From positions 620,001 to 684,000 of the forward strand of contig NZ_LMUS01000006.1 in assembly GCF_009765835.1 (NCBI RefSeq): DNA of 64,000 bases. Direction: 5' to 3'. Below the pieces are notes generated by a model. The model was not told where the DNA came from. It worked only from the letters and a program-made list of their open reading frames with translations, and made no database searches. This DNA comes from Granulicella sp. L56 (GTDB taxonomy: Bacteria; Acidobacteriota; Terriglobia; Terriglobales; Acidobacteriaceae). Numbering within the stretch: position 1 is the stretch's first letter; the number at the start of each line of letters is the position of its first letter. Of this stretch, positions 23,496 to 36,477 are shown piece by piece. Both the position numbers and the translations under genes were made by a program.

Positions 23496-24884
23496 TCAGC
23501 CCTCAGGCTGCATTTCCGAATGCACCGGCAGAACGATTTCGATGCTCAAACCACCGCCTGCCTCGTTCATCGCGCGAATCCTGCCTCCATGAAGATGCAA
23601 AATCCTTTCGGCTATCGCCAATCCAAGCCCGGCCCCGGTCGAGTTCGTGCCGCGAGAATCGTCCAAACGGTAAAAAGGTTTGAAGATTTGCGTAAGCTCA
23701 GCCTCTGGTACGCCTGTACCGCGATCTCGCACGACGATGATCGCTTCGTGTGCGTCTATCACCGGATTATCCCGGAGGTTGACTTCAACCACTGTTCCGG
23801 CGGCCGTAAACCTGACCGCGTTGCGGAGAACATTTTCAATCGCACTCCGCAGAAGACTGGGATCTCCGAGCACAGTCAGATCTGCCTCCTGAACGATGTC
23901 TACACGGCTTCCTCGCTCTTGAGCTTCAAATTCAGCGTCGCTGGCAACGCTCGAAACAAGCTCAGACAGATTCACACGCACCAAATTCTGGAGAGTCGAG
24001 GCAGCATCAAGTCTGGCCACTGTCAGCAACCGCCCAATCATCTCATTCAGACGCTGCAGATCGATCTCCATGCGATCCAACGCCGGGTCTTCTCCAGCAT
24101 GGCGGCGCAGTAGATCCAATGCCACATTCATCCGCGCCAACGGAGAGCGTAGCTCGTGAGAGACGTCATTCAATAATTGCCGTTGGCTGGAGATGAGATT
24201 CTCCGTTTTATTCGCCATCCGATTGAAGTCTCGAACAAGATCTCCAAATTCGTCTCGACGCAATTCCAGCGCGGCATCTGCACGGACACTCAATTGTCCC
24301 GCTGCGATTTGTTGCGCGGCGGAGCGCAGACGAAGTATTGGCTTGGTCAAATATCGTGTCAGAAAGTAGCACACGAGGCCCGACACAAACAGCGCCAAGC
24401 CTGCGCGCAACAAGACGGCCATGGGATTAAAACCAAATGCCGCACCCGGCCCCGCCAGCAACTCGGATGCATAGATATAACTGTGTCCGCTGGAGCCTTG
24501 AATCGGGATCGCCATCCTCACCAGGCCTCGCCGCATCTCGTAAGCCTTAGGCTCGCCTGTGACGACAGGAGCGACGATCCTCGAAAACTCCGAGCAGGAC
24601 TCTCCGGCCAGTGGATTGCCCATCGTGTCGAAGAGGCAGGCGTGAATATGCCCATCTTTGAAGAGTTGCTGCGTATAACGTGTGGCCTCGGTGACGCCTC
24701 CCTGTTCCAGCGCTCCTACATCTGCCGCACCAAAATATTTTGTTGTATCCGAGAGGCTCGCCTGCCAATGGGAGGGCACGTTTCGCGGTTGCAGTACAAA
24801 AGCCAGCACGAGCGTTATTCCAGTTAAGACCACGGTCGCCCAGAACCAGAGAAATATTTTGACGAACAAGCGCGGCACCTTCAA
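23496..24884 (-). CDS. CpxA-like sensor histidine kinase
   Basis: A 462-residue membrane sensor kinase. Span one (FVKIFLWFWATVVLTGITLVLAF) and span two (AVLLRAGLALFVSGLVCYFLT) bracket a periplasmic domain of about 125 residues. HAMP follows (RYLTKPILRLRSAAQQIAAG), then the H-box LNDVSHELRSPLARM (phospho-His about 243), N-box ENVLRNAVRF, G1 VRDRGTGVP and G2 GAGLGLAIAERI. The kinase region strongly resembles CpxA. The start is TTG at 24884, overlapping the response-regulator stop by 4 bp, with GAGGAG just upstream. Together with the Spy/CpxP-like gene across the divergent promoter this forms a Cpx-like envelope-stress module. Confidence 0.93.
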   Translation of the reverse strand: MKVPRLFVKIFLWFWATVVLTGITLVLAFVLQPRNVPSHWQASLSDTTKYFGAADVGALEQGGVTEATRYTQQLFKDGHIHACLFDTMGNPLAGESCSEFSRIVAPVVTGEPKAYEMRRGLVRMAIPIQGSSGHSYIYASELLAGPGAAFGFNPMAVLLRAGLALFVSGLVCYFLTRYLTKPILRLRSAAQQIAAGQLSVRADAALELRRDEFGDLVRDFNRMANKTENLISSQRQLLNDVSHELRSPLARMNVALDLLRRHAGEDPALDRMEIDLQRLNEMIGRLLTVARLDAASTLQNLVRVNLSELVSSVASDAEFEAQERGSRVDIVQEADLTVLGDPSLLRSAIENVLRNAVRFTAAGTVVEVNLRDNPVIDAHEAIIVVRDRGTGVPEAELTQIFKPFYRLDDSRGTNSTGAGLGLAIAERILHLHGGRIRAMNEAGGGLSIEIVLPVHSEMQPEG

Positions 24885-25576
24885 AGCTCCTCGCCGGAAG
24901 AACGTGGCGCCAGGAGATATCCACTGCCTCGAATGGTCTTGATGCGCTCGACGTCGCCGTAAATGTCCAGCTTCTTTCGGAGGTTGCTGATGTGTACATC
25001 GATCGAGCGATCGAATGCTCCCAGCTTTCTTCCCAGAGCAGCATCGGTCAGATAATCGCGAGTGAGTGCTCGTCCTGCGTTCCGGACCAATGCCTCAAGT
25101 AGAGCGAATTCAACGGTTGTCAACTGCACCGATTTGCCAGCGACCCACGCCTCTCTCAGCGCAATGTCGATGGTGATATCTCCTGCGGTACAGCTGTCCC
25201 GCCCTGCTCGCCGATCATCCAGTCGCCGCAGAATTGCCTTGATACGGGCGACCAGTTCTCGTGGGTTAAACGGCTTGGGCAAGTAATCGTCTGCTCCCAC
25301 CTCAAGCCCGATGATGCGGTCGATGTCATCTCCACGGGCCGTCAGCATAAGGACTGGGACTGAGGAATGCATCCGCAACTCTCTGAGCACCTCCATTCCT
25401 CCCATTCGCGGCAACATCACGTCGAGAATGACGAGGGAATGGCCGCCGCCGATGGCGCGCTCCAATCCATCTCTCCCATTGTGTACGGCATGCAGGACGA
25501 ATCCCTCTTCGGCAAGCCGCTCGGTGAGCAGAGTGCAGAGTTCTATATCGTCGTCGATCATCAGCAGCGGATTCAT
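24881..25576 (-). CDS. CpxR-like OmpR-family response regulator
   Basis: A 231-residue regulator: receiver domain with the acidic pocket LLMIDDD, phospho-acceptor Asp52 in VILDVMLPRMGG, Thr in LMLTARGD and Lys in DDYLPKPFNP; then an OmpR-type winged helix with LTTVEFALLEAL, RSIDVHISNLRKKL and IRGSGYLL. These are the features of CpxR-type regulators. The start at 25576 gives the natural MNPLLMIDDD beginning; the frame is open to 25642 but that part covers the promoter region. It is followed by the kinase with a 4-bp overlap. Three TTTAC boxes lie 69 bp upstream, suggesting autoregulation. Confidence 0.94.
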   Translation of the reverse strand: MNPLLMIDDDIELCTLLTERLAEEGFVLHAVHNGRDGLERAIGGGHSLVILDVMLPRMGGMEVLRELRMHSSVPVLMLTARGDDIDRIIGLEVGADDYLPKPFNPRELVARIKAILRRLDDRRAGRDSCTAGDITIDIALREAWVAGKSVQLTTVEFALLEALVRNAGRALTRDYLTDAALGRKLGAFDRSIDVHISNLRKKLDIYGDVERIKTIRGSGYLLAPRSSGEEL

Positions 25577-25644
25577 GGCAGCGCGTTTGACCTCTCGCCT
25601 ATTCCTTCTCGATGTTAGCCGCATCAGCGATTGATGGCACAAGC

Positions 25645-25669
25645 TTTACCTATCTTTACAATCCTTTAC
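25645..25669. promoter_or_regulatory. Triple CpxR-like box between the regulator and the Spy-like gene
   Basis: Three TTTAC pentamers at 25645, 25655 and 25665, exactly 10 bp apart; on the minus strand they read GTAAA-N5-GTAAA-N5-GTAAA. This is the published CpxR half-site and spacing (GTAAA-N5-GTAAA in E. coli) with an extra copy. The site lies between divergent genes for a CpxR-like regulator and a CpxP/Spy-like protein, so one site could serve both. Confidence 0.7.
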
Positions 25670-25735
25670 CAACCTTAATCGCACGCACTCCTCGCCGATG
25701 CTGTACTCAAGATCAGAAGTTGGAGAGGTGCACCG

Positions 25736-26218
25736 ATGAAACGAAAAACTTTTTGGATAGTGATTGTGGTGGTAGTGATTGTTGCCAGCGCAGCCCTAGC
25801 GCGCGCAGCGTTCAAGGGAGGACGCGGCTGGTGCGGGCCCGGCTGGCACCGTGGCGGACCACTGGGCCATGTGGCCCGCGAACTCCACATGAGCAAGGCA
25901 CAGGTCGCCGAGACCCGCTCGATTGTTGTTGCCGAACGCCCGACGCTAGCCGGGTTGCTCAAAGAACTGATTGGCGAGGCTCATCAAATGGCGGACGCAA
26001 CCGTCAACGGATCGTTTGATGAAAACAAGGTTCAAGCCATTGCGGCCACAGAGGGCAATACCTTCGCAAAGTTGATGGTAGAGAAAGAGCTGATCAAATC
26101 GCGAATCTATGCCACGGTGCTCGATAAAAGTCAGCGCAAATCGGCGGATGAGATGCAGCAGCACTTGCTCGACAGGCTTGACCATGTCGTTACGAAAATG
26201 CAAAGGCCGATTCAGTAA
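25736..26218 (+). CDS. Spy/CpxP-like periplasmic protein
   Basis: A 160-residue protein with an N-terminal export signal (KTFWIVIVVVVIVASAALARA), a short Gly/Trp/Cys patch (GGRGWCGPGWHRGG), then a mostly helical body: HMSKAQVAETRSIV, LAGLLKELIGEAHQMADA and RIYATVLDKSQRKSADEMQQHLLDRL. The helical repeats and the position of the second 'LxxxQ' segment resemble the Spy/CpxP (LTXXQ) family of stress chaperones and Cpx inhibitors. That family match is moderate, but the divergent location next to CpxRA-like genes is the classical cpxP arrangement. Likely role: feedback inhibitor or metal/misfolding buffer in the periplasm. Confidence 0.75.
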   Translation: MKRKTFWIVIVVVVIVASAALARAAFKGGRGWCGPGWHRGGPLGHVARELHMSKAQVAETRSIVVAERPTLAGLLKELIGEAHQMADATVNGSFDENKVQAIAATEGNTFAKLMVEKELIKSRIYATVLDKSQRKSADEMQQHLLDRLDHVVTKMQRPIQ

Positions 26219-26949: not shown

Positions 26950-26980
26950 TGGCATCACTGTGATCGATCTCAGTGATGCT
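26950..26980. terminator. Hairpin between convergent genes
   Basis: GCATCACTG (26952-26960) pairs with CAGTGATGC (26971-26979) around the self-complementary tgatcgatct. It sits in the 37-bp gap between the convergent membrane-protein and TonB-domain genes. There is no good U-tract, so terminator function is only possible. Confidence 0.35.
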
Positions 26981-28472
26981 AATGAACGATCACAGGCGGC
27001 GGCCTCAAAGTGAAATCGACATAGACTGTAGTCGCAACGTCCTGGGGCTGCCCATCGACAGAATACGGTCTGTATCGCCACGTACGCACGGCAGCGACCG
27101 CCGCGCTTTGCAGAGAGGAAGGCCCCTTGATGACATGCAAAGTTTTAATCGCTCCAGACCTCGATATGGTGGCTTGCAGCGCAACTTGTCCCTCAAGGTG
27201 ATCCCTTAGAGCTTGAGCTGGATACTCGGGCCGCGGTGCCGAGAGCAGATACCCTGCCATGACGTTCGCGGGGACATATCTGAGCTTTGGACTATCGGAG
27301 ATGGGGTGAGTATCGGATGAAACGTTGGAGTTGGCGCCATCGAATGCGGTCGAAGGCGTCGACGTGGCTGCGGCTGTACCAACAGCAGTGGCGAGCTGGC
27401 TTGTTGATGAAGGAGGCGCAGGCGATGCGCCATCTGCGGTTAAAGCTGGTGATGGGGCAGTAACTGCGGGTGCAGACGTGGCCGGTGGAGGGGAACTGTT
27501 GAGATGGGATCGATCCCCTTGAAAACGTGCCAAGAGTGCCTGACCCCGTGCCGAGTGAATGTAGAAAAAAGCAGCAGCGGCGATTGCAGCCAGAACGATA
27601 AAGATTACAACGGGAACAATGCGCCGTCTTTTCTCGGTGCCATACTCGAAAGTCGGTGAGGAGAAGTCGTCATCTTCGTCCGTCCGAGGTTCGTCGAGAT
27701 GAGTTGGACCGAAGAATATGGCCCGACCTCGAGTTGGCAGTGGCGGGTCAATCGCGGGAACCTCTTCGGCAACGGGCATCACGACATCGGGCGCAACAGC
27801 ATCCGCCGTGCCACGACGCTGGAGAGGTTCGAGCCCCGCCGATTTATTTGCAGAAAGAGCAATTGGAGACGGCTCCATTTTGCCGATTCGCTGTTCAATG
27901 GAATCCAGGTGAAGCTTGACCTGCTGTGTATTGCTCTCGAGACGAGAGAGCGTCTGGCGAAGTTCGTTGGAGATCTCAAGTAAGCTGGCTTTGTCTTCAG
28001 GCACTTCGGCCGCACTCTTAGCAGGCGAAGCAGGGAGGGAAATCCGGATGGGCTCAGGCTCTTCAGTACGAACGACCGGCTTAGGAGGTAGCACTGCGCG
28101 TTGAGAGATTGGTCGCGAAGGTGAGCCGAACTGCTTCCAACATCCGGTGCCCAACAGGAACTCCATCAGCGTGTTCGTCGGCTGGGTGAGGTCGGCAGTT
28201 GTATCTGTAACGGACCGACCGCCAACAGAGGCCGCGATGATGCTCATCATATCGGTGAGCAGCAACCCTTCCCTCTCCTTCCTCACGACGGATTTAACCA
28301 GCGCCGAGAGGTCCATTCGAAACTGGTTGCTGCTTTCGAGCGTCCTTGTAAATTCGAAGAGATCGTCGGCCGATCCATGACGGATGTGATTCGTGTCGAG
28401 CAGCGAACGAAACTCCGCGATAGCGCTTCCAAAGCGCTGGACCGTCTCCTGCGTGTCTAAAAAGAAAGGCAT
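26979..28472 (-). CDS. TonB C-terminal-domain protein with a long cytoplasmic N-terminal region
   Basis: About 497 residues. The first 285 or so are cytoplasmic by prediction: no signal, a helical region with a coiled-coil stretch (LLEISNELRQTLSRLES and HLDSIEQRIGKME). One membrane span follows (RRRIVPVVIFIVLAAIAAAAFFYI), then a Ser/Pro/Ala/Thr-rich periplasmic linker of about 85 residues, then a TonB C-terminal domain: APRPEYPAQALRDHLEGQV, VIKGPSSLQSAAVAAVRTWRYRP. The TonB-type fold passes proton-motive energy to outer-membrane receptors, but normal TonB has only a few residues before its span. The start is uncertain: ATG 28472 has GAGGGG very close; TTG 28514 in the same frame has no site. 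No exbB/exbD is nearby. Confidence 0.8.
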   Translation of the reverse strand: MPFFLDTQETVQRFGSAIAEFRSLLDTNHIRHGSADDLFEFTRTLESSNQFRMDLSALVKSVVRKEREGLLLTDMMSIIAASVGGRSVTDTTADLTQPTNTLMEFLLGTGCWKQFGSPSRPISQRAVLPPKPVVRTEEPEPIRISLPASPAKSAAEVPEDKASLLEISNELRQTLSRLESNTQQVKLHLDSIEQRIGKMEPSPIALSANKSAGLEPLQRRGTADAVAPDVVMPVAEEVPAIDPPLPTRGRAIFFGPTHLDEPRTDEDDDFSSPTFEYGTEKRRRIVPVVIFIVLAAIAAAAFFYIHSARGQALLARFQGDRSHLNSSPPPATSAPAVTAPSPALTADGASPAPPSSTSQLATAVGTAAATSTPSTAFDGANSNVSSDTHPISDSPKLRYVPANVMAGYLLSAPRPEYPAQALRDHLEGQVALQATISRSGAIKTLHVIKGPSSLQSAAVAAVRTWRYRPYSVDGQPQDVATTVYVDFTLRPPPVIVH

Positions 28473-28633
28473 CCCCTCTTTGATGGACAGCGCTTTAATA
28501 AGGGTTGCGTGCAAAGTGCAGGAATCGGGCCGTCTGCTGTAAGCGGAGATATATCAGCAGATAAAATTGGGCCGCTCTGCTCAAAGAGAGTGATCCAAGC
28601 TAGAGTCCAGAAAATAAGCGCCTTAAGGAAGAT

Positions 28634-29932: not shown

Positions 29933-30469
29933 TTATGGCAGCCGAAACACAATTCCCGTGCTCAGCGTCTTGGGAACGAAGCTGTCTCCGAGCCCCGCAA
30001 GCCTGCCATAGCTGAACTCCACCACCCGCCAATCGATCCTCGGCAGGATAGTAAAGTCAACGCCACCAACAAACTGATAGGCAAATTTGGTCGATGACGT
30101 TCGCGCCGACCCTTGCCCTACCTTCAAATGCCCGAGGCCGCCCAGCACCTCTCCATAGGGTTTGAACGGCAAGACACGCGGCGTCACCGCAAGGCGCACC
30201 CCACCCAGTAGGGTGTCGAGCGTCTGGTTGGTATAGGCTCCGTTCGTGTTGCCACTCCCCGCAAAGGTTCCGCGAACGTCCAGCCCGGTGGCGAACAATC
30301 CATGCTCCGCGTCGTGATAGAGGCCCACCGTCGGCCCATACATCCATGATGTGTTTGGAGCACTCAACTTGGCCGCGGTGAACTCACCATAGATAGCAGT
30401 CTGTGCATGAGCCATACCAACCAGCCCCAACGTCATCATTCCCAACAAACAGATTCTGATAAAACGCAT
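29933..30469 (-). CDS. Small predicted outer-membrane beta-barrel protein
   Basis: A 178-residue exported protein: signal peptide MRFIRICLLGMMTLGLVGMAHAQ, then an OmpA/Opa-like small barrel pattern of alternating strands (AIYGEFTAAKLS, GPTVGLYHD, TLLGGVRLAV, FKPYGEVLGGLGHLKVG, FAYQFVGGVDF, DWRVVEFSYGRL) and a final strand ending in Phe (TGIVFRLP). I set the start at 30469 because GGAAG lies 6 bp upstream; an in-frame ATG at 30475 abuts the site. No specific family is recognised. It diverges from the first Cys/His-rich gene. Confidence 0.72.
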   Translation of the reverse strand: MRFIRICLLGMMTLGLVGMAHAQTAIYGEFTAAKLSAPNTSWMYGPTVGLYHDAEHGLFATGLDVRGTFAGSGNTNGAYTNQTLDTLLGGVRLAVTPRVLPFKPYGEVLGGLGHLKVGQGSARTSSTKFAYQFVGGVDFTILPRIDWRVVEFSYGRLAGLGDSFVPKTLSTGIVFRLP

Positions 30470-30523
30470 AAACATCTTCCAATTTTAAGCTTCTCGCCGC
30501 AGCTTGTCCTGTGCGCGAACCTG

Positions 30524-30934
30524 ATGGATAAACCCATCAGCTACAATCGCAGTGTGCGACGCATTCTGGCACTTTCGCTGTTGCTGCTCTTCAGCTTTCC
30601 GCTGGTGTCGCCGCTGCTCGCGCTCTCCACAAACTCAGACTCGAACCTGCCAGCCTGCTGCCGCCGCAACGGAGTCCACCACTGCCAGATGAAGGTGCAG
30701 CGGCCGGGCGCCTCCGCGCATCAGGTCACAGTTTCCACCGTTTCGACGAAGTGCCCCTTTTATCCCAGCCCGGCAACGCTGGTTCGGCACAACGACGCAC
30801 GGCTTCATGCCAGCACCCGCCTGCTTGCTGCATCTGTGAATCACAGCACCGTCAAAGCGCACCCCTGCGCTCATGTCCGGATTGCCCTTGATACAGCATG
30901 GCAAAAGCGCGGCCCTCCTAGCTACATCTCCTAA
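30524..30934 (+). CDS. Small exported Cys/His-rich protein, copy 1
   Basis: A 136-residue protein with an N-terminal signal (RRILALSLLLLFSFPLVSPLLA). Just after the likely cleavage site is the motif LPACCRRNGVHHCQM, and later TKCPFYPSP, giving Cys and His ligands suited to metal or disulphide chemistry. The C-terminus has WQKRGPPS. All three elements recur in the next gene, so the two are paralogues. I do not recognise a named family; the short length, export, Cys/His cluster and RGPP ending recall DUF2946-like proteins of copper loci, but this is weak. The frame is open upstream to 30407; the ATG at 30524 gives the signal peptide directly. Possible metallochaperone next to a TonB-dependent receptor. 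Confidence 0.65.
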   Translation: MDKPISYNRSVRRILALSLLLLFSFPLVSPLLALSTNSDSNLPACCRRNGVHHCQMKVQRPGASAHQVTVSTVSTKCPFYPSPATLVRHNDARLHASTRLLAASVNHSTVKAHPCAHVRIALDTAWQKRGPPSYIS

Positions 30935-31073
30935 CCTCTAAAAACTGATCCGACATTGTTCGCTTCGCGCCCGTAACTCAAGGCTCCACTTTTATGTGGT
31001 GCGACGCTGTACACGAACAATCTCATGTCTTCTTCCAAAGTCGCCCTATAAACATTGCTGCGTAAGGCTGCTT

Positions 31074-31469
31074 GTGCGTCGTGTTCTCTCCATCTCGCTG
31101 CTGTTGCTGTTCATGCTGCCGCTGGTCTCGCCGCTCTTCGCGGCGTCCACGGCAGACGCGAACGTGCCTGTGTGCTGCAGGCGCAATGGCAAGCATCATT
31201 GCATGATGGCGGCTGCCATTGCGCAGCGTTCCTCCAGCGACACTGGCAAAGCTGAAACCGCAAGCGTGCAGGAGAGCTGCCCCTATAGCGCAGCCGTTCC
31301 CGCAGTCGTCAATCTTCCCTTCAACCCCGACGAAATCCAGACGGCAGTCTCCGCCGTCACCATCAGTTCGTCGGCTCACCCAACCCAGATCGAAGTTTCC
31401 CCCCGCGTTTCCATCGACCGCTCCCACCAGAAACGCGGTCCTCCATCACTGAGACTCTCCCGCTCCTGA
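31074..31469 (+). CDS. Small exported Cys/His-rich protein, copy 2
   Basis: A 131-residue paralogue of the gene before it. A GTG start at 31074 with AAGG about 7 bp upstream gives a direct signal peptide (MRRVLSISLLLLFMLPLVSPLFA); the frame is open to 30996. Shared features with copy 1: RRxL-S-LLLLF and PLVSPL in the signal, VPVCCRRNGKHHCMM after cleavage, ESCPYSAA, and HQKRGPPS near the end. The motif CCRRNG-x-HHC-x-M holds three Cys, two His and a Met, as in soft-metal sites. It lies 68 bp before the TonB-dependent receptor on the same strand, so all probably form one transcript. Function unknown; copper or other soft-metal handling is inference. Confidence 0.65.
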   Translation: MRRVLSISLLLLFMLPLVSPLFAASTADANVPVCCRRNGKHHCMMAAAIAQRSSSDTGKAETASVQESCPYSAAVPAVVNLPFNPDEIQTAVSAVTISSSAHPTQIEVSPRVSIDRSHQKRGPPSLRLSRS

Positions 31470-31537
31470 ACACAGGAAATGGACAGTGCGGCATAGCGCG
31501 ACAACCGTGCACCGCACCCGAACCTTTGGAGGAATCA

Positions 31538-34384
31538 GTGCAGCTTCTCAGGCATCACCTTGCAGTCATCGTCTTCACCTTTGCCGCTCTCACAACCACC
31601 AGTGCGCAGCAGACCGTGAACAACGCTTCTCTCAGCGGACGCGTCATCGATCCGTCCGGCGCTGTCATCGCCAACGCGCAGATCACAGCAACCCAGACGG
31701 CAACCAATATTTCGCGCACGATCTCAACCAGCAAAGACGGGCGTTTTCGCTTCCCTTATCTCTCCCTCGGCACTTATAACGTCCACGTCCACCAACAAGG
31801 CTTCGCAGAAGCCGACCGTTCCATCACCCTGACCGTCGGTGCGGACTTCGATCTGCAAATTGCGCTCCCTCTGGCCGGAACCCAGACCTCAGTTAACGTA
31901 TCCAGCCAGTCCATGCTTCTCGAAACCAACCGCAGCGAAGTTGCCAACACCATCTCTCCGCACGAGATCGAGAACCTCTCCCTGCTGGGCCGAAACTTCC
32001 TCGACCTGGCTCTCCTCGTTCCCGGTGTCTCACCCACCAACACCGCCAGTACGCAGCTCTTCGCCGAAACCTCCGCCGTCCCCGGGCAGGGAATCTCCAT
32101 CGGCAGTCAGCGCAACTTCTCCAACAGCTTCGTCGTCGATGGCCTCTCCGCCAATGATGACGCCGCGGGACTCACCGGAACCTTCTACGGACTCGACGTC
32201 GTGCGCGAGTTTCAGGTCGTCACCTCCGGCGGTCAGGCCGAGTTCGGCCGCGCACTCGGCGGCTACATCAACATGGTCACCAAGAGCGGCACCAATGCGC
32301 TCCACGGCAGCCTCTACGGCTATCTGCGCAACCAGCGCCTCAACGCCGACAATGCGCTCTCACAAAGTAAGCTGCCCATCACGCAAGCCCAATACGGAGC
32401 CAGCCTCGCAGGCCCCATCCTGCGCAACCGTACCTTCTACTTCACCAACTTCGAACGCAAGCAGCTCAATCAGGACGGACTCATCACCATCGCGCCCGCC
32501 AACGTCGCCGCCATCAACAGCCGTCTCCAAACCATCGGCTACCAGGGCCCGCAGATCACGACTGGCCTCTACTCAAACCCGGTCCACACAAATAACTTCT
32601 TTGCCAGGATCGATCATCACCTCAACGACCGCGACCAGCTCAGCGCGCGTTACAGCCTCTACGAAGTGGACAGTAAGAACTCGCGCGGCGTCGGCGGGCT
32701 AAGCGCCATCAGCGCTGCGGCTGCGCTTCACGATATCGACCAGACCATCGCCGTCAGTAATATCTTCACCCTCTCTCCCCGAACCGTAAACGAAACCCGC
32801 GGCCAGTTCACTCGAAGTAACCTCACAGCGTTGCCCAACGACGCCACTGGCCCTGCCGTCAGCATCTCCGGCGTCGCCTCCTTCGGCACACTCTCCGCCT
32901 CTCCCACAGGCCGCCTCGACTACCTCTACGAAGTAGTCGACAATCTCTCTCATCAGGCAGGCAGCCATTCGCTCCGCGCTGGCGTGGACTTCCTCTTCAA
33001 CGACCTCACCATCACCTTCCCCATGTCCAACCGTGGAAGCTACTCCTTCTCTTCGCTCAATAATTTTCTCAACGACACCTACAACAACTCGGGCTACACC
33101 CAATCCTTCGGCAACCCCCTCGTGCCGCAGACCAACCCCAATCTCGGCCTCTATGTGCAGGATGAATGGAAGCTCGCGCGATCCCTCACGCTCAACGCTG
33201 GTCTCCGCTACGATCTGCAATTTCTCAAATCCATCGCCACGGACACCAACAACATCTCGCCAAGGATAGGCTTCGCCTGGTCACCACATCGCACTACTGT
33301 AGTTCGCGGAAGCTACGGACTCTTCTACGATCGTGTTCCCCTGCGTCCGCTCTCAAACGCGCTCCAGTCGAGCAACAACACGACCAACATCAACAGCTCC
33401 ACTTTCGTTACCGTCAGCGTTTCGCCGACTCAAACCGGAGCGCCCACCTTCCCCAACATTCTCACAACACTCCCCACGGGTGTTCTGGTCAACTTCACCA
33501 CGATGGACCCGCATATCCAGAACGCCTACTCCGAGCAGGCCAGCCTCGAAGTCGAACAGCAGCTAAGCGCCAGCAGCAATCTCAGCCTCAGCTACCAACA
33601 TCTGCGCGGCCTCCATCTGCTTGCCTCCGTCAACCAGAACACGCCCACCTGCATTGCCACCGGCAACAACAACGGCTGCCGTCCCAACGCCGCCTACGGC
33701 AACAATAAGCAGTACCAGTCCGCCGGAGACTCCTACTACGACGGGCTCTCCGTCTCCTTCCAGCAAAAGCCAACGCGCTGGGGAGCTTACCGCATCTCCT
33801 ACAACTGGTCGAAGGCAATCGACGACGTAGGAGAATTTTTCTTCAGTTCACCCATCAACAATTTCGATATCGCCGAAGACCGTGGCCTCTCCGACGACGA
33901 TCAGCGCAATCGCCTCGTCTTCGACGGCACCATCCATACTGCGATGCAGCCATCCCACGGACTTTGGAGCCACGTCACCAGCGGCTTCCTGCTCAGCACC
34001 ATGCTCCAGTACTACACCCCTTCGCCCTTCAACATCACCACCGGAACCAATAGCATTCAGGGCACAACCCTGCGCCCCTGCGTATCCGGCATCGCCAACT
34101 GCACCCAGGCGCTGCCCGGAACCGTCATCGCACGCAACGCCGGAGTTGGCTTCAACTTCTTCAACATGAACACTCGCCTTAGCCGCACCTTTCCCCTGGG
34201 AGACCGCTTCCGTCTCGAAGCCATCGCAGAAGCCTTCAACGCACTCAACCATCGCAACGACCTCATTCCGAACGGAACCTTCGGAACCGGCACTTACCCC
34301 AACGCAGCCAACTCCAGCTTCGGCCATGCCACCGCTGTCGGCGATCCGCGGCAGGTTCAACTCGCAGCCCGCCTGACTTTCTAA
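31538..34384 (+). CDS. Oar-like TonB-dependent receptor
   Basis: A 948-residue outer-membrane receptor. Signal peptide (VIVFTFAALTTTSAQQ), then a carboxypeptidase-regulatory-like (CarboxypepD_reg) domain with LSGRVIDPSGAVIANAQI and GRFRFPYLSLGTYNVHV, a plug domain (about 120-240) with NFLDLALLVPGVSP and VVTSGGQAEFGRALGG, and a long beta-barrel ending in Phe (VQLAARLTF). This is the giant Oar-like type that dominates acidobacterial genomes. The start is GTG at 31538 with GGAGGA 4-5 bp upstream, better than the TTG at 31526. The ligand is not evident. Position after two Cys/His-rich proteins and before a BNR protein with a CPCC motif suggests a metal-related ligand, which is inference. Confidence 0.92.
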   Translation: MQLLRHHLAVIVFTFAALTTTSAQQTVNNASLSGRVIDPSGAVIANAQITATQTATNISRTISTSKDGRFRFPYLSLGTYNVHVHQQGFAEADRSITLTVGADFDLQIALPLAGTQTSVNVSSQSMLLETNRSEVANTISPHEIENLSLLGRNFLDLALLVPGVSPTNTASTQLFAETSAVPGQGISIGSQRNFSNSFVVDGLSANDDAAGLTGTFYGLDVVREFQVVTSGGQAEFGRALGGYINMVTKSGTNALHGSLYGYLRNQRLNADNALSQSKLPITQAQYGASLAGPILRNRTFYFTNFERKQLNQDGLITIAPANVAAINSRLQTIGYQGPQITTGLYSNPVHTNNFFARIDHHLNDRDQLSARYSLYEVDSKNSRGVGGLSAISAAAALHDIDQTIAVSNIFTLSPRTVNETRGQFTRSNLTALPNDATGPAVSISGVASFGTLSASPTGRLDYLYEVVDNLSHQAGSHSLRAGVDFLFNDLTITFPMSNRGSYSFSSLNNFLNDTYNNSGYTQSFGNPLVPQTNPNLGLYVQDEWKLARSLTLNAGLRYDLQFLKSIATDTNNISPRIGFAWSPHRTTVVRGSYGLFYDRVPLRPLSNALQSSNNTTNINSSTFVTVSVSPTQTGAPTFPNILTTLPTGVLVNFTTMDPHIQNAYSEQASLEVEQQLSASSNLSLSYQHLRGLHLLASVNQNTPTCIATGNNNGCRPNAAYGNNKQYQSAGDSYYDGLSVSFQQKPTRWGAYRISYNWSKAIDDVGEFFFSSPINNFDIAEDRGLSDDDQRNRLVFDGTIHTAMQPSHGLWSHVTSGFLLSTMLQYYTPSPFNITTGTNSIQGTTLRPCVSGIANCTQALPGTVIARNAGVGFNFFNMNTRLSRTFPLGDRFRLEAIAEAFNALNHRNDLIPNGTFGTGTYPNAANSSFGHATAVGDPRQVQLAARLTF

Positions 34385-34401
34385 CAATCAAAGGAACCGT
34401 G

Positions 34402-35667
34402 ATGACCAGAAGCATCTCGACAAATCGCCTCGTTGCAATCAGCCTCACCATCGTCGCGGTGCTGGTCATCGCGTTCTTCCTCTGGCGGCACACACGCCCT
34501 CTCATCCAAACCGGGCATCAGGCGTTCGTCTTCGAGGCCCATCCACACGCTCTCGGCATCGAAGCAAAACGTCCCGTCGTCGCCGCCACCGTCACTGGCG
34601 GACTCTATCTCCTTGCCGTAGAAGACAGCGCACTCACCCTGCGCATGTCCCATGATAGCGGTGAACACTGGATGCCCGCCACCTCCCTCAGCACACCGGG
34701 CAACACTGTAAACACCTCCGCCGAAAACGCCCCGCAACTGGTCGCACACGGCATGTACGCCTTCGCGCTTTGGCAGCAAAAAGGCGCAGCCGATCAAACA
34801 CAACTCGTCGAAGCTCGCTCCACGGGCATGGGCACAGCGCCACCACTCTCCACTATCGTCACTGACAAGCCAGCAGCGGACAAATCCTACTCCGGCTTCG
34901 CAACTTTAGCCGTAGCTCCCAACGGTGACGTCTACGCCGCATGGCTTGATGGCCGCGACAATACTTCAGCCTCAACTGGCACCTTCAACGTCTACCTCGC
35001 CCGGTCCACCGATCGTGGCGCGACCTTCCACCACAATGTAAAAGTAGCCACCCTCGCCTGTCCCTGCTGCCGCCCCTCTGTCGCTATTGCAGCCGATGGC
35101 ACCGTGTATGTTGCCTACCGTCACGTCTATGGCGACAACGAGCGCGACATCGCCGTCGCCGCCTCGGCCGATCACGGCGCGCACTTTGGCCCACCCGTCC
35201 GCGTCGCCAACGATCATTGGAAGCTCTTCGGCTGCCCGGAATCCGGCCCGGTCACAGCAGCACAAGGCAACAAGCTCATCGTAGCGTGGTACACAGCCAC
35301 AGGCGAACACCCCGGTATCCGCATGGCCGCTTCGCATGACGGCGGCCAAACCTTCTCGAAGGAAATCTCCGTCAGCGAAGGCGTCGAAAACGCAAACCAC
35401 CCATACCTCTCCATGGCCGACGACGGCACCATCGCCCTCGTCTTCTCAGGCCGCCAGGCAACAAAAGGCGGCGACTGGAACAGCCTCACACCCTACGCTC
35501 TCCGCATCGACACGAGTGGTCACGTCTCAGACACAACTCACGTTCCGGCTGATGCCTCCGGCGAACGCTACCCCACCGCCGGCCTCTCTCCCGACGGCGA
35601 TATCTATGTCGTCTGGAGCGGAACTGATGCAACCCACGCCTCGCTCATCCGCGGCACCTCGCATTAG
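34402..35667 (+). CDS. BNR/sialidase-like beta-propeller protein, membrane anchored
   Basis: A 421-residue protein anchored by one N-terminal span (LVAISLTIVAVLVIAFFLW). The rest is a beta-propeller with Asp-box-like repeats: SHDSGEHWMPAT, STDRGATFHHN, SADHGAHFGPP, SHDGGQTFSKE. It looks like the sialidase/BNR superfamily, but I see no clear sialidase catalytic set. A CPCC motif (LACPCCRPSVAI, about residue 220) and a second Cys site (LFGCPESGP) are unusual for a sialidase and repeat the Cys theme of the small proteins upstream. AAAGGA lies before the ATG, only 17 bp after the TonB-receptor stop, so it is in the same operon. Confidence 0.8.
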   Translation: MTRSISTNRLVAISLTIVAVLVIAFFLWRHTRPLIQTGHQAFVFEAHPHALGIEAKRPVVAATVTGGLYLLAVEDSALTLRMSHDSGEHWMPATSLSTPGNTVNTSAENAPQLVAHGMYAFALWQQKGAADQTQLVEARSTGMGTAPPLSTIVTDKPAADKSYSGFATLAVAPNGDVYAAWLDGRDNTSASTGTFNVYLARSTDRGATFHHNVKVATLACPCCRPSVAIAADGTVYVAYRHVYGDNERDIAVAASADHGAHFGPPVRVANDHWKLFGCPESGPVTAAQGNKLIVAWYTATGEHPGIRMAASHDGGQTFSKEISVSEGVENANHPYLSMADDGTIALVFSGRQATKGGDWNSLTPYALRIDTSGHVSDTTHVPADASGERYPTAGLSPDGDIYVVWSGTDATHASLIRGTSH

Positions 35668-35781: not shown

Positions 35782-36477
35782 ATGCAAACTCGTCCCCGCA
35801 CGATCGCTCTTCTCCTCTGTGCCAGCTTCATGCTTCCGGCGGCCGTCGCTCAGGCTACAAAAATACCCGCATCCAATAACATTCTCGAAACCATCGAGTG
35901 GACGTGGGCGGCTAAGCCCGATGCCCCCGATCCTGCGCTGCCCAACGTCCTGCTCCTCGGCGACTCCATCACCCGTGGCTACTATCCCGAGGTCACAAAA
36001 CTCCTCGCCGGACGCGCCAACTGCTATCTCTTCGCCACCTCCGCAGCCTCCGGCGATCCGCGCCTTATCCATCAGGTGGCCGACTACTTCGCAATGATGC
36101 CGCTGAAGTTTACCGTCATTCACTTCAACAATGGAATGCACGGATGGAAGTACACCGAAGCCGCCTATGGCAGTTCTCTTCCCCAATTGGTCGAAACGCT
36201 GCGCGCAAAATCGCACGGAGCAAAGCTGGTCTGGGCCACCACCACGCCAGTCCACACAGCCGATTCAGGCGGAGCCACCAACCCGCGCATCGATCAGCGC
36301 AACGCCGAATCTCTCCGCACCATGCAGCGCTTTCATATCGCCATAGACGACCAGCACGCTCTCATGGCTGCGCATGATGACCTTCACAACGGCGATGTCC
36401 ACTACACCGAAGCAGGCAGCGCGGTACAGGCAAAACAAGTTCAACAGATCGTCGAAAAATTATTGCCAGCTAACTAA
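35782..36477 (+). CDS. SGNH/GDSL-type hydrolase, exported
   Basis: A 231-residue exported hydrolase. Signal peptide TIALLLCASFMLPAAVAQA, then block I NVLLLGDSITRGYYPEV (GDS Ser nucleophile), the Gly-type block around ATSAASGDP, the Asn block VIHFNNGMHGWKY, and block V DLHNGDVHYTEAGS (Asp/His). The catalytic set of the SGNH family is therefore complete. These enzymes remove acyl (often acetyl) groups from carbohydrates or lipids. The start is ATG at 35782; a GTG at 35773 is an alternative. It converges on tex with a 13-bp gap. The substrate is unknown. Confidence 0.88.
   Translation: MQTRPRTIALLLCASFMLPAAVAQATKIPASNNILETIEWTWAAKPDAPDPALPNVLLLGDSITRGYYPEVTKLLAGRANCYLFATSAASGDPRLIHQVADYFAMMPLKFTVIHFNNGMHGWKYTEAAYGSSLPQLVETLRAKSHGAKLVWATTTPVHTADSGGATNPRIDQRNAESLRTMQRFHIAIDDQHALMAAHDDLHNGDVHYTEAGSAVQAKQVQQIVEKLLPAN

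Follow-up and report, generated by a model that had tools for sequence, protein, structure and literature searches.

CruR-like tandem leader proteins ahead of an Oar-like TonB-dependent receptor in Granulicella: candidate copper-responsive upstream open reading frames

In Bordetella pertussis, the small DUF2946 protein CruR is encoded by an upstream open reading frame (uORF) whose CXXC and RAPP motifs lie 45 residues apart, and it makes the gene of the downstream TonB-dependent receptor (TBDR) repressible by copper (PMC9426467). Copper has been proposed to relieve translational arrest, upon which Rho terminates transcription (PMC9426467), and arrest of CruR was later demonstrated in vitro (PMC12992588). 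The Cys-to-RAPP spacing is reported to be constant within one or two residues, the homologues listed by the authors come mostly from Proteobacteria, and CruR has so far been studied in one proteobacterium (PMC9426467). Among RAPP-like motifs RGPP is described as giving the most stable ribosome arrest; RAPP/RGPP arrest withstands EF-P, and RGPP is one of the most avoided tetrapeptides across many phyla (PMC12992588). Enrichment upstream of TBDR, YcnI, PCuAC and PepSY genes is described for small exported proteins with RAPP/RGPP, and in other bacteria uORFs of this class stand before DsbA/thioredoxin and Sec genes as well (PMC12992588). A further exported leader resembling DUF2946, CutF of Rhodobacter capsulatus, was initially taken for a chaperone (PMC9426467); here copper causes or prolongs arrest, a stem-loop opens and the downstream genes are switched on (PMC9973294).

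The locus described here occupies part of a 64,000-nucleotide stretch (the window) of the 4.7 Mb assembly of Granulicella sp. L56. Four plus-strand genes follow one another at gaps of 139, 68 and 17 bases: two CruR-like small, putatively exported proteins, leader 1 (30554..30934) and leader 2 (31074..31469), an Oar-like TBDR with a GTG start (31538..34384) and a BNR propeller with an ATG start and a predicted membrane anchor (34402..35667). The initial annotation had located the same two small proteins, receptor and propeller, along with the 17-base gap, the CPCC site of the propeller and the motifs shared by the small proteins, and all of this is borne out. The ORF preceding leader 1 (29933-30475) sits on the opposite strand, and leader 1 can therefore head an operon. 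Although its reading frame extends back to ATG 30524, the codons ahead of GTG 30554 show little conservation in the orthologue of genome G023, and the GTG is favoured as start for that reason; the frame of leader 2 extends back to GTG 30996, but GTG 31074 is preferred on the family alignment. Both leaders carry CCRRNGxHHC(Q/M)M, a Cys-Pro further on and then QKRGPPS. In leader 1 the CCRRNGVHHC motif is encoded at 30656..30685 and RGPP, the proposed arrest site, at 30908..30919 (CGC GGC CCT CCT); in leader 2 the corresponding positions are 31173..31202 (CCRRNGKHHC) and 31434..31445 (CGC GGT CCT CCA), with the Cys-Pro, at the position of the CXXC of DUF2946, at 31278..31283.

Relatives of the leaders were gathered from a scan of genome contigs, which gave 15 leader loci (the named relatives being Acidobacteriaceae metagenome-assembled genomes, MAGs), and from a leader profile search that matched in 36 of 61 genomes, including 34 of the 37 of the genus. 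Outside the genus, this search matched G051, from another family, and G043, a marginal match in which the motifs are absent. A phylum-wide draw matched 26 of 297 genomes, 25 of them in the window's family and one outside it (G338), while at least six further genomes of the family had no leader match. Altogether, 59 loci (the window, the 15 contigs and 43 stretches) yielded 74 members, 73 of them distinct, the leader of L056 being identical to that of L017, a Granulicella MAG. The alignment of 71 members leaves out the L056 duplicate, the marginal match L090 and one L088 member with an internal stop.

Across the 71 aligned leaders C34, C35, G39, H41, C69, R121, P123 and P124 are invariant, and P32, R36, C43, P70 and G122 nearly so, behind an N-terminus that appears hydrophobic by eye; the free variation of Cys and His residues that would speak against a metal site is thus not observed. 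Mean pairwise identity reaches 72% over CC..HHCMM, 97% at the Cys-Pro and 99% at RGPP, and falls to 16% between HHC and Cys-Pro, 24% in the linker from Cys-Pro to RGPP and 17% in the C-terminal tail. That linker nevertheless holds its length, at 48 residues in 54 of 69 leaders (range 46-52), unlike the distance from HHC to Cys-Pro, which varies from 17 to 29. R[GA]PP falls within the last 19 residues of 70 of the 73 distinct members. In 57 loci it is so placed in 0 of 489 other ORFs that do not overlap and in 1 of 3277 ORFs of 80 residues or more from six-frame translation, a contrast that is partly circular because the profiles used to find the members contain the motif. The form is RGPP in 69 of the 73 and RAPP in two; the members lacking it near the end are L090, the broken L088 copy and one L066 copy, whose RGPP sits 48 residues ahead of the end of the frame. 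Judged from sequence, the resemblance among the leaders exceeds chance.

By tblastn, a TBDR lies downstream of the leaders in 55 of 57 loci, the exceptions being L016 and L065, which supports the operon of the earlier proposal as a recurring gene set. A start codon could be placed 23-319 nt past the last leader in 51 of the 55 loci tried; in L088 the frame so placed is CopC. The window TBDR matches the CarboxypepD_reg and OMP_b-brl_4 models (PF13620, 73.7 bits; PF25183, 383.7 bits), with no match to the Plug model. Receptors of about 760 residues follow the leaders in 25 loci, none with two leaders, and receptors of about 810-860 residues in ten loci, of which two have two leaders and five continue with PepSY_TM. 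The Oar-like type of the window accounts for 20 loci, comprising 11 close pairs, two pairs 1.9-2.0 kb apart and seven single leaders.

The layout thus recalls cruR-bfrG-bp2921 (CruR being bp2923): a small first-gene product with a Cys site, R-A/G-PP near its end and a fixed spacing between the two, a TBDR as the next gene and, in five relatives, PepSY_TM as the third. It departs from CruR in that the family has Cys-Pro together with CC-x5-HHC instead of CXXC, a spacing of 48 instead of 45, frequent pairing of the leaders before Oar-like receptors and a CxCC propeller in third place. The Cys-Pro sites of the window leaders read CPFY and CPYS; the second Cys of CXXC is kept in a minority of members only (CPYC in seven, CPFC in two), and CC-x5-HHC as the conserved site is apparently new. 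The leaders also resemble CutF, a DUF2946-like exported peptide that has a Cys motif and a proline-rich end and is encoded before a copper gene, although CutF controls a multicopper oxidase and is copper-activated through a Shine-Dalgarno stem-loop (PMC9973294). With the small exported or membrane proteins ApdA, ApdP and the Streptomyces lividans leaders they share a C-terminal R-A/G-PP and a co-oriented gene downstream; ApdA and ApdP differ in that they monitor protein localization (PMC10951233, PMC12992588).

A relation to DUF2946 (PF11162), raised in the initial annotation, holds for part of the family and fails at the Pfam cut-off of 23.7 bits for both window proteins. Leader 2 aligns over nearly the full length of the model at 19.1 bits (19.9 with a shorter start), leader 1 has no match, hits at an E-value of 1 or below were obtained for 33 of 71 members (the best at 4.4e-7), and the members above the cut-off come from four relatives' genomes (G011, G024, G233 and G276). 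Comparison by hhalign of the 71-member alignment with three canonical DUF2946 leaders was not significant. Because of these absent or sub-threshold matches and the hhalign result, the twins are, on their sequences, described as CruR-like and not assigned as DUF2946 members.

We read the twins as tandem copper-responsive regulatory leaders of the CruR type, with a probability of roughly 0.7. This reading is supported by the RGPP end, the Cys-Pro-to-RGPP spacing kept despite a linker identity of 24%, the TBDR downstream, the DUF2946 matches, a further DUF2946 leader elsewhere in the window's genome, the copper genes in relatives and the C-over-G excess at the leader end. Weighing against it are the missed DUF2946 cut-off, the unconserved second Cys, the hhalign result, ordinary intergenic folds, Shine-Dalgarno pairing confined to a minority of loci and the absence of CopC from the window's genome. 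For the window, we infer arrest, copper sensing and regulation, as well as the identity of the metal, the sign of regulation and the Rho and Shine-Dalgarno steps. The Cys/His site of the nascent leader would already be outside the ribosome once RGPP reaches the peptidyl-transferase centre. With copper scarce, the ribosome would stall at RGPP, shielding C-rich RNA from Rho and, in the window, perhaps also freeing the TBDR Shine-Dalgarno sequence paired with the Pro-Pro CCUCC; under the stall, the Oar-like TBDR and the CxCC propeller would be made. Copper on the nascent leader would relieve the arrest and turn the downstream genes off.

A link to copper, which the initial annotation proposed alongside other soft metals, is supported by gene context in relatives; the genome of the window itself has no CopC. 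Both wide pairs, L085 and L088, have CopC and CopD between the two leaders (50.5 and 55.9 bits in L085; CopC 70.4 bits and CopD by eye in L088). L087 has, by eye, an RND-like ORF, followed by CopC and a CopD-like ORF and then the leader, and L016 has the order leader, PepSY_TM, SCO1/CusF. CopC exceeded its cut-off in eight of 61 genomes, with three of nine copies at leader loci; in most loci inspected by eye, no further copper gene was seen. An arrest leader sensing some other input, such as Zn, Fe, thiol or redox state, or Sec export, is the strongest of the alternatives, yet an improbable one. It would suit a conserved site of CC-x5-HHC rather than CXXC, the RAPP/RGPP uORFs that elsewhere precede DsbA/thioredoxin and Sec genes (PMC12992588) and the one propeller relative that neighbours mercury-resistance genes besides a copper oxidase, but the specific metal genes seen in the leader units are copper-related (CopC, CopD, SCO1/CusF, PepSY_TM).

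At the RNA level, 70 leader ends show an excess of C over G of 17.5% (windows centred 30 nt ahead of the stop codon), compared with 1.8% at 258 control ORF ends; the rut region of CruR is likewise marked by a C>G bubble (PMC9426467). No intrinsic terminators were found between the genes, and unusual stability of the intergenic RNA folds was rejected (z of -1.29 and -0.71). In the window, base pairing is predicted between the Pro-Pro CCUCC of leader 2 and GGAGG (31528..31532), the Shine-Dalgarno of the TBDR, with 5.0 expected pairs that drop to 0.6 after random synonymous choice of Pro codons. As a general feature such a helix was rejected, with more than two pairs in only 12 of 42 loci (synonymous mean 7 of 42), nine of 51 loci having been dropped for a distance above 240 nt or an unclear Shine-Dalgarno; a paired test over loci gave p = 0.00025, and we treat the pairing in the window as a lead. 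CCT encodes the first Pro of RGPP in 52 of 71 leaders, as opposed to 14.5% of 2129 Pro codons in downstream ORFs, and at four other conserved Pro columns CCT occurs in 9-20 of 59-69. Upstream leaders (11 of 15), downstream leaders (9 of 14) and those that stand alone (32 of 42) show this bias alike, and it is therefore not tied to the receptor start; it may be partly lineage-bound, and only three of nine further members from other searches have CCT by hand recount.

Pairing of this kind would also accommodate regulation of the opposite sign, in the manner of CutF, with copper causing or prolonging arrest, a stem-loop opening and genes for efflux or detoxification being turned on. CutF itself operates so (PMC9973294), and CopC-CopD, the RND-like ORF or copper oxidases stand near some relatives; however, a TBDR, of the uptake type as with CruR, is almost always the gene under control, the RGPP end and its spacing fit CruR and not the proline-rich end of CutF, and the helix is not general, so that we consider this sign distinctly unlikely. 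Least probable is the role given to the twins in the initial annotation, that of exported metallochaperones exchanging copper or a different soft metal with receptor and propeller: a conserved Cys/His/Met cluster behind a hydrophobic N-terminus, co-occurrence with copper genes and the precedent of CutF, first believed a chaperone (PMC9426467), speak for it, but it leaves unexplained a strongly avoided tetrapeptide (PMC12992588) at the C-terminal end, a linker of fixed length and free sequence and the constant position at the head of a gene set before a TBDR, and the most rigid features of the family, RGPP and its distance from Cys-Pro, are hallmarks of CruR (PMC9426467).

The main texts of PMC9426467, PMC9973294 and PMC10987492 make no mention of acidobacteria; PMC12992588 names them once, in a legend on motif avoidance, and acidobacterial uORFs may be counted in its Figure 4E on the spread of TBDR uORFs. 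Literature searches joining copper, arrest peptide and TonB-dependent found nothing beyond the papers cited here. A divergent Acidobacteriaceae family with a different Cys/His site would offer a natural experiment on which nascent-chain residues sense metal and on how arrest is relieved.

In the leader tree (128 columns), the upstream copies of pairs fall among single leaders and the downstream ones mainly form groups of their own. Labels change 25 times, compared with 41.2 times on average after shuffling; deep support is weak, and 29 of the 68 inner branches are open. By hand count, HHC is kept in all 15 upstream copies, while the second His is lost in seven of 15 downstream copies (for example CCRTHGKHKC), though retained in the downstream leader of the window. 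The tree grouping disfavours recent duplication as the origin of the twins and, together with the pattern of His loss, indicates that the pairs are not recent copies. Such old, divergent pairs ahead of Oar-like receptors are apparently new. They could have arisen if an operon of two modules, leader-copCD and leader-TBDR-propeller, lost its copCD genes, and having two leaders may serve to set two thresholds or two checkpoints, or may be left over from such an operon. More speculatively, two leaders in series, from distinct lineages and differing in the form of their metal site, might constitute a two-input or two-threshold gate on one copper receptor, with the arrest Pro-Pro codons (CCU-CC) doubling as an anti-Shine-Dalgarno removed by the stalled ribosome; we regard this as doubtful, but were it true, the same codons would serve peptide arrest and an RNA switch. 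Tandem leaders this old and divergent are an unusual layout, and their logic is testable by simple reporters.

The propeller matches BNR_2 (40.2 bits, cut-off 31.4) and, weakly, profiles of sialidases of known structure; its single-sequence model is poor (mean pLDDT 49), with only an N-terminal helix (residues 7-35) confident. C220, C222 and C223 of the CPCC site (35059..35070) and C278-P279 (35233-35238) are invariant among 11 aligned propellers. Close homologues, 49-82% identical over alignment A4, are encoded by five further genomes of the genus; four of these have the gene after the Oar-like TBDR, and the fifth, G007, has it on another contig behind an ORF that by eye resembles the C-terminal part of a receptor. 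In L079, a weak tblastn match (8e-11) without an ORF, about 3.0 kb after the leaders and downstream of the TBDR, is probably a decayed propeller gene. More distant propellers in other families stand behind a receptor in three loci, two of them with a leader (L081 and L152) and one in which none was seen (L148); those of L147 and L149 have no receptor immediately ahead. The propeller is missing from most of the 20 Oar-like TBDR loci, and the recurring unit of leader, TBDR and CxCC propeller is apparently new.

The CxCC..W..CP pattern is also present in L152 and in five plasmid-borne relatives from other phyla, these being the five records whose neighbourhoods were inspected among 66 matched. 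Copper oxidase genes adjoin the relative in Runella and Salipiger, the latter also neighbouring mercury-resistance genes, and lie within about 4 kb in Pseudosulfitobacter and Phaeobacter; on the Spirosoma plasmid a bilirubin oxidase is about 6 kb off and DUF326 is adjacent. These 'sialidase family' proteins of Roseobacter and Bacteroidota plasmids thus share the Cys pattern and the nearby copper genes with the window propeller, but they sit amid genes for copper oxidation and efflux, whereas the window propeller follows a TBDR and is putatively leader-controlled. Their neighbours suggest that the propeller probably has a role in metal handling, with copper favoured, and make a sialidase role unlikely. 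Literature searches joining copper, sialidase, TonB-dependent and PepSY, or 'sialidase family protein', multicopper oxidase and copper resistance, found no papers. The copper context of CxCC propellers provides a functional lead for proteins annotated as sialidases. Downstream of the window propeller lies a GDSL-type esterase (35785-36477), and in the G023 orthologue a similar ORF appears by eye to start after the propeller.

Elsewhere in the window's own genome, a second DUF2946 leader (L093/L151), this one above the cut-off (27.5 bits), has DHCPVC and, at a spacing of 43 residues by hand count, an RGPP end, and an ORF that looks receptor-like by eye directly follows it (L151:2151-5228, contig C1). 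About 2 kb upstream of the twins, a minus-strand protein with a TonB C-terminal domain (26979-28514) possibly energises the receptor. Some 4-5 kb from the operon (23496-26218), a minus-strand sensor kinase and response regulator adjoin a small plus-strand protein with a Metal_resist match below the cut-off (21 against 29.2 bits), an arrangement that we take to resemble the ZraP/CpxP layout.
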